Shown piece after piece: positions 17,940 through 24,806 of a stretch of DNA of 64,000 nt (the first letter of the stretch is position 1; each line of letters opens with the position of its first letter). The position numbers and the translations under genes were made by a program. Origin of the DNA: Thermoleptolyngbya sichuanensis A183 (GTDB lineage Bacteria; Cyanobacteriota; Cyanobacteriia; Elainellales; Elainellaceae); assembly GCF_013177315.1 (NCBI RefSeq), contig NZ_CP053661.1, forward strand, positions 3,472,001-3,536,000, read 5' to 3'. Under the pieces are notes generated by a model. The model was not told the DNA's origin and ran no database searches. It saw only the letters and a program-made list of their open reading frames with translations.

Positions 17940-19456
17940 CTTTAGTTTGGACTAACTGGCATCACAATAATGCTCAACAGGATGCCATAAAGAATCTGCT
18001 CAACCGTTCATAACAGTTGAACTTAAGGAATTGGATACAATCCTGCTCGCAGTTAAGCTGCTGTTGCAACCGGACTGTTCAGGGATTGTTCGGATGTCTT
18101 GCGTTTCGAGGCTCGTTTTTTGACCATCGGATAGCAGGGACGAGGAGTTGGCTTGTGCCCCTTGCCTCGTCCTGGCGATTTACCACGAGGTTTAGGCGCA
18201 GGAGCAGGGGTGCCAATCGCTGCCAAAATGCCTGCAAACGCTTGTGCGACCCGACCCGGAGTCAACGTTTCTTGCGGTGCCTGCCAGGGCAAGGGGTGGT
18301 CAGTACAGTCCTTTCGCGCTAACCACAACTGCCAACTGAGCAACGGCATCAGGCTGCTCCACTGTTCGGTTGCCGATACAGAACTGAACTGGGGATGTGT
18401 CCAATATAGCCTCTGCTTGGCAAAGCGATACCAGTGTTCAATGGCAAAGCGACGGAGGTAGTGCAACCACAGGGTTTCTAACGGAGGCATCTGCTCACCC
18501 AGCCAAACTAACCACAAAGGAGCCAAGCGTCGCGTGCTGCTCTGTGTCTCCAGCACCTCCACGCGCAACACTTCCATTGCCCGTTTGGGGGATTTGCGGA
18601 AATGGTATGCACTCCAACGACTGACCCGCACTCGTCCCCAGTTGGGATCATCGACTTCAACGGTTTCGACCGGGACACTCCAAGTGTCAGGGTCATTGAG
18701 TTTCATCTTATGTCCATGCTTGGCAGGTGCGCCTCGCCCTCGATACGCTGGGGGCGCGCCATAGACACATCGATTGGATGTAACCCGCAGCAGCAAGTCT
18801 GCCTCAATCCCTGCCGTTTGGTTGACAAAACTGGCATTGCCGTACCCTCGGTCGTAGATCGCCAACGGACGCACCGCTAACTGCCGAGTCACTTGTTTGA
18901 GTTGGAATGCCGCTTTACTGGCGGGTGTTTCAAAGCTGGTGATGCGCTCATGCCGCAATGGTAATGCCCAACTGCCCCTGTCTTCAGCAATCCAGGCTAA
19001 GGTACTGTAGTTTTGTCCGGCTATCGGGGCATGTCCTGTTCTGCCTGATAAGGTGCGGTCTTTCAAACGCCTGGCAGCAGGACGGTTCCACCGACTCGCA
19101 TCACCTGCCAACAACGGTTGCTGCTGAGTCGGTATCTGCTGCACCAACAGCTTCAGCACCTTTGATCGGGGTAGGCGGCTATCGCGCAACGCTTCATAGG
19201 TGCTCGACCACTGGCGACGAAAGACAGGACTCTGCGATAGCCTCACAAACGACACGATGCACGCACTCACTAACACGGCATCCATCAGATCAAACAGGGC
19301 ATCTCTGGCGTTTCCCAAGCTGGCATACAACGTTTGGCGAAATTGCTGAAGTTCGTTGAAAATCATGGGGTCAATGTTGGTTGTACTTCATTGACCTTAC
19401 GGCAGTCGGTGCTTCTCATTGACTGCCTTCCTCTTCACCATTAGTCCAAACTAAAG
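17940..19456 (-). mobile_element. Insertion sequence (IS4-like DDE type), copy 1
   Basis: 1517 bp with perfect 16-bp terminal inverted repeats CTTTAGTTTGGACTAA / TTAGTCCAAACTAAAG. It is flanked by a 6-bp direct target duplication TGAGAA (17934-17939 and 19457-19462). It encodes one transposase on the minus strand and is identical, as far as I can see, to the inverted copy at 58824-60340. Identity of the copies and intact target duplications point to recent transposition. Confidence 0.95.
18053..19366 (-). CDS. DDE transposase of insertion sequence copy 1
   Basis: 437 residues. The three acidic catalytic residues of an RNase H-like DDE transposase are visible: Asp89 in LLAGDASRW, Asp172 in AIYDRGYGN, and Glu310 in RFAIEHWYRFAKQRL, the last matching the Y-(2)-R-(3)-E-like signature region of IS4/IS701-type enzymes. 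The C-terminus is strongly basic (KPRGKSPGRGKGHKP). A conserved single frame with no frameshift suggests the element is active. IS701 elements usually make 4-bp duplications whereas 6 bp is seen here, so I do not fix the family. Confidence 0.93.
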   Translation of the reverse strand: MIFNELQQFRQTLYASLGNARDALFDLMDAVLVSACIVSFVRLSQSPVFRRQWSSTYEALRDSRLPRSKVLKLLVQQIPTQQQPLLAGDASRWNRPAARRLKDRTLSGRTGHAPIAGQNYSTLAWIAEDRGSWALPLRHERITSFETPASKAAFQLKQVTRQLAVRPLAIYDRGYGNASFVNQTAGIEADLLLRVTSNRCVYGAPPAYRGRGAPAKHGHKMKLNDPDTWSVPVETVEVDDPNWGRVRVSRWSAYHFRKSPKRAMEVLRVEVLETQSSTRRLAPLWLVWLGEQMPPLETLWLHYLRRFAIEHWYRFAKQRLYWTHPQFSSVSATEQWSSLMPLLSWQLWLARKDCTDHPLPWQAPQETLTPGRVAQAFAGILAAIGTPAPAPKPRGKSPGRGKGHKPTPRPCYPMVKKRASKRKTSEQSLNSPVATAA

Positions 19457-21375: not shown

Positions 21376-21905
21376 GAGGAGGGCAAGAGAAATTTAGCTC
21401 TGAAATTTAGCTCTATTATGGCCGGTGAATGCGGGACTCTGGGATTTTAGGTTCTGGTATCGCCGCCGTCCGGAAGTCCCCCTTGCTCAAGGGGGATGTA
21501 GGGGGATCGGTTCGGGTACAGAAGCGATCGGAGATCCCCCCTAGCCCCCCTTATCAAGGGGGGAAAGCCGGAAGTCCCCCTTGCTTAAGGGGGATTTAGG
21601 GGGATCGGCTCGGGTACAGAAGTGATCGGAGATCCCCCCTAGCCCCCCTTATCAAGGGGGGGAAAGCCGGAAGTCCCCCTTGCTCAAGGGGGATTTAGGG
21701 GGATCGGCTCGGGTACAGAAGTGATCGGAGATCCCCCCTAGCCCCCCTTATCAAGGGGGGGAAAGCCGGAAGTCCCCCTTGCTCAAGGGGGATTTAGGGG
21801 GATCGGCTCGGAATTCGGACGATCGAAGATCCCCCCTAGCCCCCCTTGGTAAGGGGGGAACCGGAACCGGAGCCGGAACTGGAGCCGTTTTGGGTAAGGT
21901 GCCTG
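21376..21905. other. Intergenic region dominated by a tandem hairpin array
   Basis: Between the STAND-like remnant and the PlsY-like fusion gene. It holds the 98-99 bp array at 21472-21860 and, just before the ATG at 21906, a GGTAAGGTG ribosome-binding site. Confidence 0.6.
21472..21860. repeat. Tandem array of four 98-99 bp hairpin repeats
   Basis: Units begin at about 21472, 21570, 21669 and 21768. Each holds a hairpin CCCCCTTGCTCAAGGGGG, a spacer with GGGGGATCGGCTCGGGTACA, and a second hairpin CCCCCCTTATCAAGGGGGG. The last unit diverges in its spacer. The units carry no variable spacers of CRISPR type. Confidence 0.9.
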
Positions 21906-24806
21906 ATGTCGCTGATGCAAGTTTGGGGCGTATTTCTAATCTTTGTGCTGTGCCCTGTGCTGGGGGCGCTGCCGCTGATTGAGTGGATCGTGCGGGGGCT
22001 GACGGGGAAGCGCCTGTCGAAGCTGGGCACGGGCAACGTTAGCGTGTCGGCAGCGTTTTATCACGGCGGGCGGGCGGCGGGCATTCTGGCGGTGCTGTCG
22101 GAGGCGGCGAAGGGAATTGCGGCGGTGCTGCTGGCGCGGCAGTTTTTTCCGGCGGAGTCGCTGTGGGAGGTGGTGGCGCTGATGGCGCTGGTGATGGGGC
22201 GCTATTGGGGCGGGCGCGGCGCGGGCACGACGAACGTGGTGTGGGGCTTTTTGCTGCATGACCCGGTGGCGGCGGGGCTGGTGGCGCTGATCGGCGGCAT
22301 TGGGTTTACTGTGTTGCGCGATCGCACGCTTGGCAAGCTCAGCGTCCTCGTTTTGATGCCGATCCTGGTGGCGCTGCTGCATCCCTACAGCGGCAAGCGG
22401 GTCGCCATTACCGCATTGCTCAGCCTGCTGCTGGCGTGGATTTACCAAAAAATTCCCGACGATCTGGATCTATCGGCAGAGGAAGCTCAGGAGGAATCGA
22501 AGCGCGTGTTTCAGTTTTTTCGGGGCGATCGCGCCTTACTGTCCCTGGATCAGGCTCTCTCACCGGCAAAAGTCGGCTCCAAAGCCGCCACCCTGGCCAC
22601 CCTCAAGCGCCTGGGCTATGCTGTGCCCGATGGGTGGGTGCTGCCACCGGGAGACGACCCCGCGCCGTTGCTGACTGCCCTCTCACCCAGCGCCGATGCG
22701 CCCTTGGTGGTGCGTTCTTCTGCCATTGGTGAAGATTCGGACACGGCTTCGGCGGCGGGGCAATACGAGTCGTTTCTGGAGATCACCAGTCCGCCCGCGC
22801 TAGAGCAGGCGATTCTGCGCTGTCAGGAGTCCTACAACCTGCCCAGGGCGGTGCAATATCGCCAGCGCCAGGGCAGCGCCGAGGGGGGCATGGCGGTGCT
22901 GGTGCAGCGGCAGGTGGCGGGGGCGTTTTCCGGGGTGGCCTTTAGCCGCGACCCGATCCAGCGGCAGGGCGAGGCGCTGGTAATCGAGGCGCTGCCGGGG
23001 CGGGCGGATCAGGTGGTGTCGGGTCGGGTCACGCCGGAATCCTACCGTGTGTGGCTGCCGGAATCGCCAGAGGACACCCCCGACCCTGAAGCCTTCCCGA
23101 TAGAAGGAACGGGCGATGTGCCGCTGGCGGTGATCCGGCGGGTGGCGCTGCTGACGCGGCAGATCGAAGCCCAGTTTCACGGCGTTCCGCAGGATGTGGA
23201 ATGGAGCTATGACGGGCAGCAGGTGTGGATCTTGCAGGCGCGGCCGATTACGACGCTGGTGCCCATCTGGACGCGCAAGATTGCCGCCGAGGTGATTCCT
23301 GGCTTTATCCGGCCGCTCACCTGGTCGATTAACCGACCCCTGACCTGCGGCGTGTGGGGCGAAATTTTTACCATTGTGCTGGGGAACCGCGCTCAGGGGC
23401 TGGACTTTGAGGAAACGGCGACGCTGCACCACTCTGCTGCATACTTTAATGCGACCCTGCTGGGCGATATTTTTCGGCGGATGGGGCTACCCGCCGAGAG
23501 CCTGGAATTTCTCACCAGGGGCGCAAAGTTCAGCAAGCCGCCGCTGGGGTCTACGCTGCAAAATCTGCCTGGACTGCTGCGGCTGGTGCAGCGCGAACGA
23601 CGACTGCTGAAGGAGTTTACCCAGCGCGATCGCCAGCAGTTTGCCCCGGCGCTGGCCAACCTGGCCGCCCGGCCCGCCGACTCGCTGGCCACCGCCGATC
23701 TGCTCGATCGCATCGACCAGATTTTGGAACTGCTGCGCCCCGCCACCTATTTCAATATCCTTGCGCCGCTGGGATTTGCCGCCCGACGCGCCCTGTTCCG
23801 GGTGGATGAAGCGGCGCTCGATAACAGCGTGATGCCGGAGGTGGCGGCCGTGCGATCGCTCCAAACCCTGGCCCAACAAGTGCGATCGCACCTGCCCGCA
23901 CCCCCTGCTGACCCCGACGTGCTGTTGATGCAGCTTGGGGAAACCCCGGCGGGACGGGACATTCTCCACCAGTTTGACCAGTTCCTCGACCGCTATGGCT
24001 ACCTCAGCGAAGTAGGGACAGATATCGCCGTTCCGACCTGGCGCGAGGCTCCCCAGGCTGTGCAGCGCCAGCTTGCCCAATTTGCCCAGCTTGACCAGTT
24101 TGCGACCGTACCCGCTGCGCCGCAGTCTAGACCGCCTGCTGGCAAGGTGCGAACCGTCCAGCAGCGGCTCGACCTCAAGGGGCGCGTGGCTGAGGTTTAC
24201 AATCGCCTGCTGGCAGACCTGCGCTGGAGCATTGTGGCGCTGGAGCAGCGCTGGCTGGCTGACGGCTTGCTGAACGCGGCTGGTGATATTTTTTTCTTGG
24301 AAATTTCGGAAATTCGGGCGGTGGTGACAGAACAGGATGCCGATTGGGGTTTGGTAAAACGGCGGGTACAGGAGCGGCGATCGCGCTTCGAGGAAGATTC
24401 CCAGCAGACGATGATTCCCCTGCTGGCCTACGGACACGAGCCGCCGCGCCCGGTGGCCCAGCCAGAACAGCCCGCCCTCAGCAGACTGATCGGCATCGGG
24501 GCCAGCCCTGGCGTGGCGGTGGGGACAGTCGTGGTGGTGCGATCGCCCCAGGACGCGCCGCCCCTCGACCGCTCCTATATCCTCGTTGTGCCCTACACTG
24601 ATGCAGGCTGGGCCCCGCTGCTGGCGCAGGCGGGCGGGCTGATTGCCGAAGTTGGAGGGCGGCTCTCCCACGGGGCGATCGTCGCCCGCGAGTACCAGGT
24701 TCCCGCCGTGATGAACCTGGCCAGCGCCACGCAGCGGCTTCGATCGGGCCAGCGGGTGCGGCTGGACGGAGAGACGGGCGTGGTGGAGGTGATGGAACCG
24801 GAATAG
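21906..24806 (+). CDS. PlsY-like membrane domain fused to PEP-synthase/rifampicin-phosphotransferase-like enzyme
   Basis: 966 residues from the ATG at 21906 (GGTAAGGTG lies just upstream; a start at 21846 would be read from repeat DNA). Residues ~1-185 form a membrane domain resembling glycerol-3-phosphate acyltransferase PlsY: LGTGNVSVSAAFYHGGRAAG at the place of GSGNxGATN, and GGRGAGTTN at the place of GGKG. The loops are altered, and PlsY's HREN-like motif is replaced by HPYSGKR. Residues ~212-450 are a pyruvate-phosphate-dikinase ATP-binding domain (GSKAATLATLKRLGYAVPDG, VVRSSAIGEDS, SGVAFSRDP, QDVEWSYDG, ILQARPITT). Residues ~455-855 are a helical middle region. Residues 858-960 are the swivelling phosphohistidine domain with GGRLSHGAIVAREYQVPAV, His ~922. 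The soluble part has the order of rifampicin phosphotransferase. The substrate is unknown. Confidence 0.85.
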   Translation: MSLMQVWGVFLIFVLCPVLGALPLIEWIVRGLTGKRLSKLGTGNVSVSAAFYHGGRAAGILAVLSEAAKGIAAVLLARQFFPAESLWEVVALMALVMGRYWGGRGAGTTNVVWGFLLHDPVAAGLVALIGGIGFTVLRDRTLGKLSVLVLMPILVALLHPYSGKRVAITALLSLLLAWIYQKIPDDLDLSAEEAQEESKRVFQFFRGDRALLSLDQALSPAKVGSKAATLATLKRLGYAVPDGWVLPPGDDPAPLLTALSPSADAPLVVRSSAIGEDSDTASAAGQYESFLEITSPPALEQAILRCQESYNLPRAVQYRQRQGSAEGGMAVLVQRQVAGAFSGVAFSRDPIQRQGEALVIEALPGRADQVVSGRVTPESYRVWLPESPEDTPDPEAFPIEGTGDVPLAVIRRVALLTRQIEAQFHGVPQDVEWSYDGQQVWILQARPITTLVPIWTRKIAAEVIPGFIRPLTWSINRPLTCGVWGEIFTIVLGNRAQGLDFEETATLHHSAAYFNATLLGDIFRRMGLPAESLEFLTRGAKFSKPPLGSTLQNLPGLLRLVQRERRLLKEFTQRDRQQFAPALANLAARPADSLATADLLDRIDQILELLRPATYFNILAPLGFAARRALFRVDEAALDNSVMPEVAAVRSLQTLAQQVRSHLPAPPADPDVLLMQLGETPAGRDILHQFDQFLDRYGYLSEVGTDIAVPTWREAPQAVQRQLAQFAQLDQFATVPAAPQSRPPAGKVRTVQQRLDLKGRVAEVYNRLLADLRWSIVALEQRWLADGLLNAAGDIFFLEISEIRAVVTEQDADWGLVKRRVQERRSRFEEDSQQTMIPLLAYGHEPPRPVAQPEQPALSRLIGIGASPGVAVGTVVVVRSPQDAPPLDRSYILVVPYTDAGWAPLLAQAGGLIAEVGGRLSHGAIVAREYQVPAVMNLASATQRLRSGQRVRLDGETGVVEVMEPE

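Follow-up and report, generated by a model that had tools for sequence, protein, structure and literature searches.

Organization of the locus

The window analysed was a stretch of 64,000 nucleotides from the genome of Thermoleptolyngbya sichuanensis A183. Translation of positions 21906-24806 on the forward strand gave a protein of 966 amino acids without an internal stop, in which a membrane domain resembling the acyltransferase PlsY was followed by the domains of a phosphohistidine dikinase. The features of the gene were as follows.

21906..24806, + strand: fusion gene, 966 aa; open frame with full-length homologues in 105 genomes of the same class
21951..22442, + strand: PlsY-like membrane domain, residues 16-179 (PF02660; Foldseek to 5xj5-5xj8; hmmsearch to 5xj5)
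22026..22070, + strand: altered motif I, GTGNVSVSAAFYHGG, residues 41-55, where PlsY has GSGNxGATNxxR; conserved in 144 homologues
22197..22235, + strand: altered motif II, GRYWGGRGAGTTN, residues 98-110; PlsY counterpart GHxxPxFxGFKGGKGVAT
22437..22466, + strand: place of PlsY motif III, WIYQKIPDDL, residues 178-187, no HREN (hand alignment to aaPlsY)
22548..23261, + strand: ATP-grasp (PPDK_N-type) ATP-binding domain, residues 215-452 (PF01326; invariant residues)
22710..22739, + strand: VRSSAIGEDS motif, residues 269-278 (translation and homologue alignment)
23262..24260, + strand: helical middle (putative acceptor) domain, residues 453-785 (identity profile, model, matches to RPH structures)
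24480..24803, + strand: phosphohistidine swivel domain, residues 859-966 (PF00391)
24666..24692, + strand: SHGAIVARE, residues 921-929, with the codon of the phospho-carrier His922 at 24669-24671; aligns with the RPH/PEPS swivel motif

An alternative TTG start lies 60 bases 5' of the ATG at 21906 and would add 20 amino acids; it sits at the edge of a repeat array. Since the relatives begin at the ATG, position 21906 is the likely start of the fusion gene. The array (21470-21858), directly upstream, consists of 3.9 tandem copies of a 99-base unit with 94% matches and is rich in CCCCCTT/AAGGGGG palindromes. A frame at 18053-19366 resembled an IS transposase when inspected by eye only.

Three Pfam families scored above their cut-offs: PF02660 (G3P_acyltransf) at residues 16-179 with 64.8 bits (gathering cut-off 24.1), PF01326 (PPDK_N) at residues 263-451 with 134.9 bits and PF00391 (PEP-utilizers) at residues 889-958 with 74.9 bits. 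The PEP/pyruvate-binding barrel PF02896 gave no match in the fusion protein at an E value of 0.1, so the protein is not a PEP synthase. Translation and the Pfam searches thus bore out the initial annotation, which had described one uninterrupted frame joining membrane, ATP-binding, helical and swivel domains; it had also read the motifs correctly, with GNVSVSAAF at residues 43-51, the ATP-site and swivel motifs where listed above, and no HREN sequence.

Distribution and descent of the fusion

Of 386 genomes of the phylum searched at the protein level, 121 gave a match, 105 of them in the class of the window; the remaining 16, from outside that class, had the soluble half only. A separate scan of named genomes yielded 80 loci, which included Nostoc, Anabaena, Fischerella, Calothrix, Oscillatoria, Leptolyngbya, Phormidesmis and Pleurocapsales, among others. 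In total, 144 distinct copies were aligned end to end, and the recurrence of the full-length frame confirmed that the gene is a true fusion and not the product of joining two genes that are separate in relatives. The sole split copy found (L053) owes its split to a frameshift: one base is missing from the stretch that encodes WIYQK(L)PDDL. Together with the 105 genomes of the same class, this result ruled out an assembly join.

A tree of the soluble part, built by a quick method and containing several long branches, broadly tracked taxonomy, and unfused soluble proteins from outside the class (L179, L180 and L182) branched outside all of the fusions. Plasmid records contained soluble RPH-like relatives only, none of which covered 80% of the query. 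The fusion is real, old and conserved in many cyanobacteria, and it is widespread and apparently vertically inherited. One copy (L150) came from a contig labelled Tatlockia (Legionellaceae); it adjoined a cyanobacterial family (f3) in the tree and the contig is probably a mislabelled or mixed bin. In addition, one genome (G169) encoded a 591-aa paralogue (L055:6329-8104) that lacks the middle domain and has the PlsY-like, ATP-grasp and swivel domains.

The PlsY-derived half has a rewritten active site

The membership of the N-terminus in the PlsY family, as initially annotated, was confirmed by Pfam, Foldseek and hmmsearch, and the alternative of an unrelated membrane family failed. The AlphaFold model matched the solved PlsY structures 5xj5-5xj8 over 183 columns with a TM score of the target of 0.73-0.76 and an rmsd of 2.6-3.0, in agreement with a seven-helix PlsY fold; hmmsearch to 5xj5 gave an E value of 0.0013. 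The PlsY equivalog model TIGR00023 scored the window copy at 19 bits against a cut-off of 137.2, and its best E value among 37 members was 3.6e-10.

Residue equivalences were taken from a profile alignment to aaPlsY, with motif III aligned by hand. Family-wide, the loops of the PlsY-like half read GTGNxSVSAAFYHGG and GRYxxxKGAGTTN. Residues of the glycerol-3-phosphate clamp (Ser35, Arg45, Lys104, Asn180 and His177) were mostly replaced, leaving T42, Y52, K/R104 and D185: Ser35 corresponds to T42 (Thr in 138 of 144 homologues), Arg45 to Y52 (Tyr in 135) and Asn180, in the hand-aligned motif III, to D185 (Asp in 139), while the similarly aligned His177 column has His in just 3 of 144, with Lys in 66 and Gln in 44. 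Lys104 was kept as Lys or Arg in 129/144 and Gly105 in 137/144. In aaPlsY, R45A (the tested mutant nearest to the change of Arg45 to Tyr) has 1.1% activity, N180D 3.3% and S35T 17% (PMC5700162 Table 2), and H177K retains 3.7% (PMC5700162). Since the clamp is gone, the PlsY-derived module should not make lysophosphatidic acid, and acylation of glycerol-3-phosphate should have been lost.

In the acyl-phosphate hole, the loop at 104-107 was largely kept, Thr41 was replaced by S48 (Ser in 130/144) and His92 by R99 (Arg in 143/144). The aaPlsY variant T41S retains 45% activity; His92 touches the acyl phosphate, and H92K leaves 2% (PMC5700162). Binding of a lipid phosphate at the old site is therefore not assured. 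N44 (139/144) and N110 (140/144) were also conserved.

The half had initially been called a degenerate PlsY. The altered loops were confirmed; decay was not, given the conservation of Y52 (135/144), R99 (143), D185 (139) and N44 (139). Such family-wide conservation is better explained by a new function than by decay, and the loops represent a second conserved state, not random decay.

The soluble half resembles RPH-like dikinases

The soluble half has the order of domains found in RPH-like dikinases: ATP-grasp, helical acceptor domain and C-terminal phosphohistidine swivel. Both the phospho-carrier His (H922, 139/144) and the Lys and Arg of the ATP site (K226, 141/144; R270, 144/144) were present; Q334, R348, E361, E432 and R446 were likewise found in all 144 homologues, and R928 in 143. 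AlphaFold modelled the full protein with a mean pLDDT of 89.7 and a pTM of 0.77, and Foldseek matched this model to RPH-Lm over about 910 columns (E value of 1e-28). The near-invariance of the ATP-grasp and swivel residues and the fold match to RPH-Lm, which spans the entire soluble half, support the assignment as a dikinase. The rifampin phosphotransferase (RPH) equivalog NF041857 gave 229.2 bits against a cut-off of 999, and the NCBIfam models for PigC (212 bits, cut-off 1300) and RedH (212 bits, cut-off 1350) also fell short.

The middle domain alone was modelled with a pLDDT of 94.5, and RPH entries were its only confident Foldseek matches, although these were weak (best E value of 0.007; TM of query 0.35-0.44 and 11-14% identity to the RIF-binding domain). 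These matches suggest that the acceptor domain, as modelled, is of the RPH type but remodelled. Residues 453-570, the N-terminal part of this domain and the likely acceptor region, formed the most conserved block of the protein, with a mean identity of 77%; the PlsY, ATP-grasp and swivel domains had 57-60%, and the linker, the rest of the middle domain and the hinge 39-48%. In the RPH family at large, by contrast, the acceptor region diverges fastest (PMC4844700). As this is the opposite of the pattern in the fusion, the fusion family seems, from its identity profile, to have one fixed acceptor.

Joint loss of PlsY-like motifs and catalytic residues

Among the 142 copies with both ends, 136 had kept the PlsY-like motifs and the catalytic residues tested. 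Both were missing from four, namely three genomes of family f13 and L038; two deviated in the PlsY loops alone and none lacked the catalytic residues alone. One of the two loop-only copies, L037, the sister of L038, has an altered ATP-site motif, VRASPVFEE. Only two lineages showed this joint loss of PlsY loops and phosphotransfer site. This coupled decay would fit a joint function of the two halves; relaxed selection on the whole gene could produce the same picture.

The f13 copies (L033:6455-9157, L034 and L035) are still open over about 900 aa, although PlsY motif I, the catalytic His and the ATP-site Lys are gone from them. An aminotransferase gene lies on one side and a PMT/ArnT-like gene on the other; in L033, kaiA comes next.

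Gene neighbourhood and other lipid enzymes

A cupin gene lay directly 3' of the fusion in 20 Nostocales loci, in most with a 4-base overlap with the fusion stop codon that suggests translational coupling; L100:10916-11263, L090 and L119 provide examples of this small cupin_2 gene. In five loci from three families (L033, L034, L035, L041 and L065) a PMT/ArnT-like glycosyltransferase gene was found directly 3', and three of these five fusion copies lacked the catalytic His. Neighbours varied, and no operon partner common to all lineages and no consistent lipid-metabolism signal across lineages was found. No prodigiosin-type cluster was present in the neighbourhoods examined.

The genome of the window also encodes a canonical PlsY (155 bits), as do those of most fusion carriers. 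Because the two genes usually occur together in carriers, the idea that the fusion replaces the ordinary PlsY was dismissed for most genomes. Two carriers showed the fusion alone: in G048 (L177), 8,000 N cover part of the region where plsY was expected, and in G062 (L178) canonical plsY was not found. Two genomes of one genus (f26 g57) lacked the fusion and each carried a pair of canonical PlsY genes (L155 and L159 in G344; L156 and L160 in G191). A role as a stand-in for DgkA was rejected, because DgkA was detected in 70/70 genomes tested whether the fusion was present or absent; the same applied to VTE6 (DUF92), detected in 46/46 genomes tested. A PF01148 search for VTE5 gave mostly one strong match per genome and no clear VTE5.

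Proposed function and alternatives

We favour, with a probability of roughly 0.55, a membrane-bound RPH-like dikinase with one conserved, probably hydrophobic acceptor, in which the PlsY-derived module does not acylate glycerol-3-phosphate. The overall reaction would run from ATP through His-P to the acceptor, with release of AMP and Pi. Based on the conserved residues, the ATP-grasp domain would phosphorylate His922 from ATP, releasing AMP and Pi, and the swivel domain would, as its fold suggests, carry the phosphate to an acceptor in the helical middle domain. A single, specific and most likely hydrophobic compound would serve as that acceptor. The PlsY-derived module would handle it at the membrane, and this module appears to retain the greater part of the loop to which the phosphate group of a lipid phosphate binds; the soluble part would lie on the cytoplasmic side. 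The acceptor may be a lipid, as raised in the initial annotation; neither the neighbours nor the two lipid-kinase families tested gave a pointer to one. A more speculative and rather unlikely reading is that the single polypeptide uses phosphohistidine dikinase chemistry to activate a lipid of the membrane, or a precursor of one, and passes the phosphorylated (or acyl-phosphate) product to the PlsY-derived site; such a lipid-activation route, not described before, would be present in many larger-genome cyanobacteria.

The same dikinase might instead use its PlsY-derived half as a mere anchor and phosphorylate a water-soluble small molecule, a metabolite or a xenobiotic, for which the middle domain alone would provide the binding site. 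In RPH, the middle and swivel domains form the acceptor site (PMC4844700), no part of the fusion is more conserved than the middle block, and the neighbours comprise unrelated soluble enzymes as well as, in 20 Nostocales loci, the downstream cupin gene. However, a pure anchor would need no near-invariant polar loop residues of the kind seen at N44, R99, G105 and N110, and the PlsY loops vanish along with the catalytic His; we regard this explanation as possible but improbable. A self-contained acyltransferase is unlikely. Here the dikinase would use ATP to convert a free fatty acid into an acyl phosphate, from which the PlsY-derived half would acylate a non-phosphorylated acceptor. Acyl phosphate is the donor of PlsY, the phosphate-hole loop and the carbonyl-contacting hydroxyl (Thr41 to S48) are largely kept, and the clamp for the phosphate of the acceptor is gone, but acyl phosphate should bind less well with R99 in place of His92, and the swivel domain would have to reach a site within the membrane. 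Moreover, we know of no dikinase of the RPH-like group that makes fatty acyl phosphates.

An ATP-driven ligase of the PigC/RedH kind, in which a substrate activated by phosphorylation would be condensed at the membrane, is very unlikely. The RedH and PigC scores (212 bits each) come close to that of RPH (229), but they lie far below the RedH (1350) and PigC (1300) cut-offs, and the neighbourhoods examined contained no prodigiosin-type cluster. An artefact or a decaying gene could account for the split copy L053 and for the loss of the catalytic His in two lineages, but hardly for 144 distinct copies with invariant residues, a tree that broadly tracks taxonomy and a split that is a one-base frameshift. 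Its probability is close to nil, and for the copy in the window conservation already refutes it.

Relationship to known systems

With RPH and RPH-like dikinases (solved RPH-Lm, 5hv1/5fbs) the soluble half shares order, fold and catalytic motifs; the fusion differs in its added N-terminal PlsY-derived membrane domain, its weakly similar acceptor domain and its score (229 bits compared to 999). With PlsY (solved aaPlsY, 5xj5-5xj9) it shares the fold, the positions of motifs I and II and most of the phosphate-hole loop, whereas the glycerol-3-phosphate clamp is replaced, motif III is missing, a kinase is fused and the score is 19 bits compared to 137. PEP synthase and pyruvate phosphate dikinase have the ATP-grasp and swivel domains in common with it, so that two-step phosphohistidine chemistry is expected, but the fusion has a helical acceptor domain in place of the PEP/pyruvate-binding barrel. 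The prodigiosin ligases PigC and RedH belong to the same superfamily and score similarly, with the fusion far below their cut-offs; to our knowledge, neither has a PlsY domain.

No description of a PlsY/dikinase fusion was found in the open-access papers searched, and the combination is a new architecture variant of the RPH-like dikinases, a group described as large, mostly unexplored and without known acceptors (PMC4844700). To this group the fusion adds a widespread, membrane-tied member with one strongly conserved acceptor region and a PlsY-derived domain that carries a consistently rewritten active site. Should the acceptor be a lipid, the protein would catalyse a cyanobacterial lipid-phosphorylating step that is missing from current pathway maps, and the names glycerol-3-phosphate acyltransferase or PEP synthase, which such genes probably receive in annotation, would be wrong.
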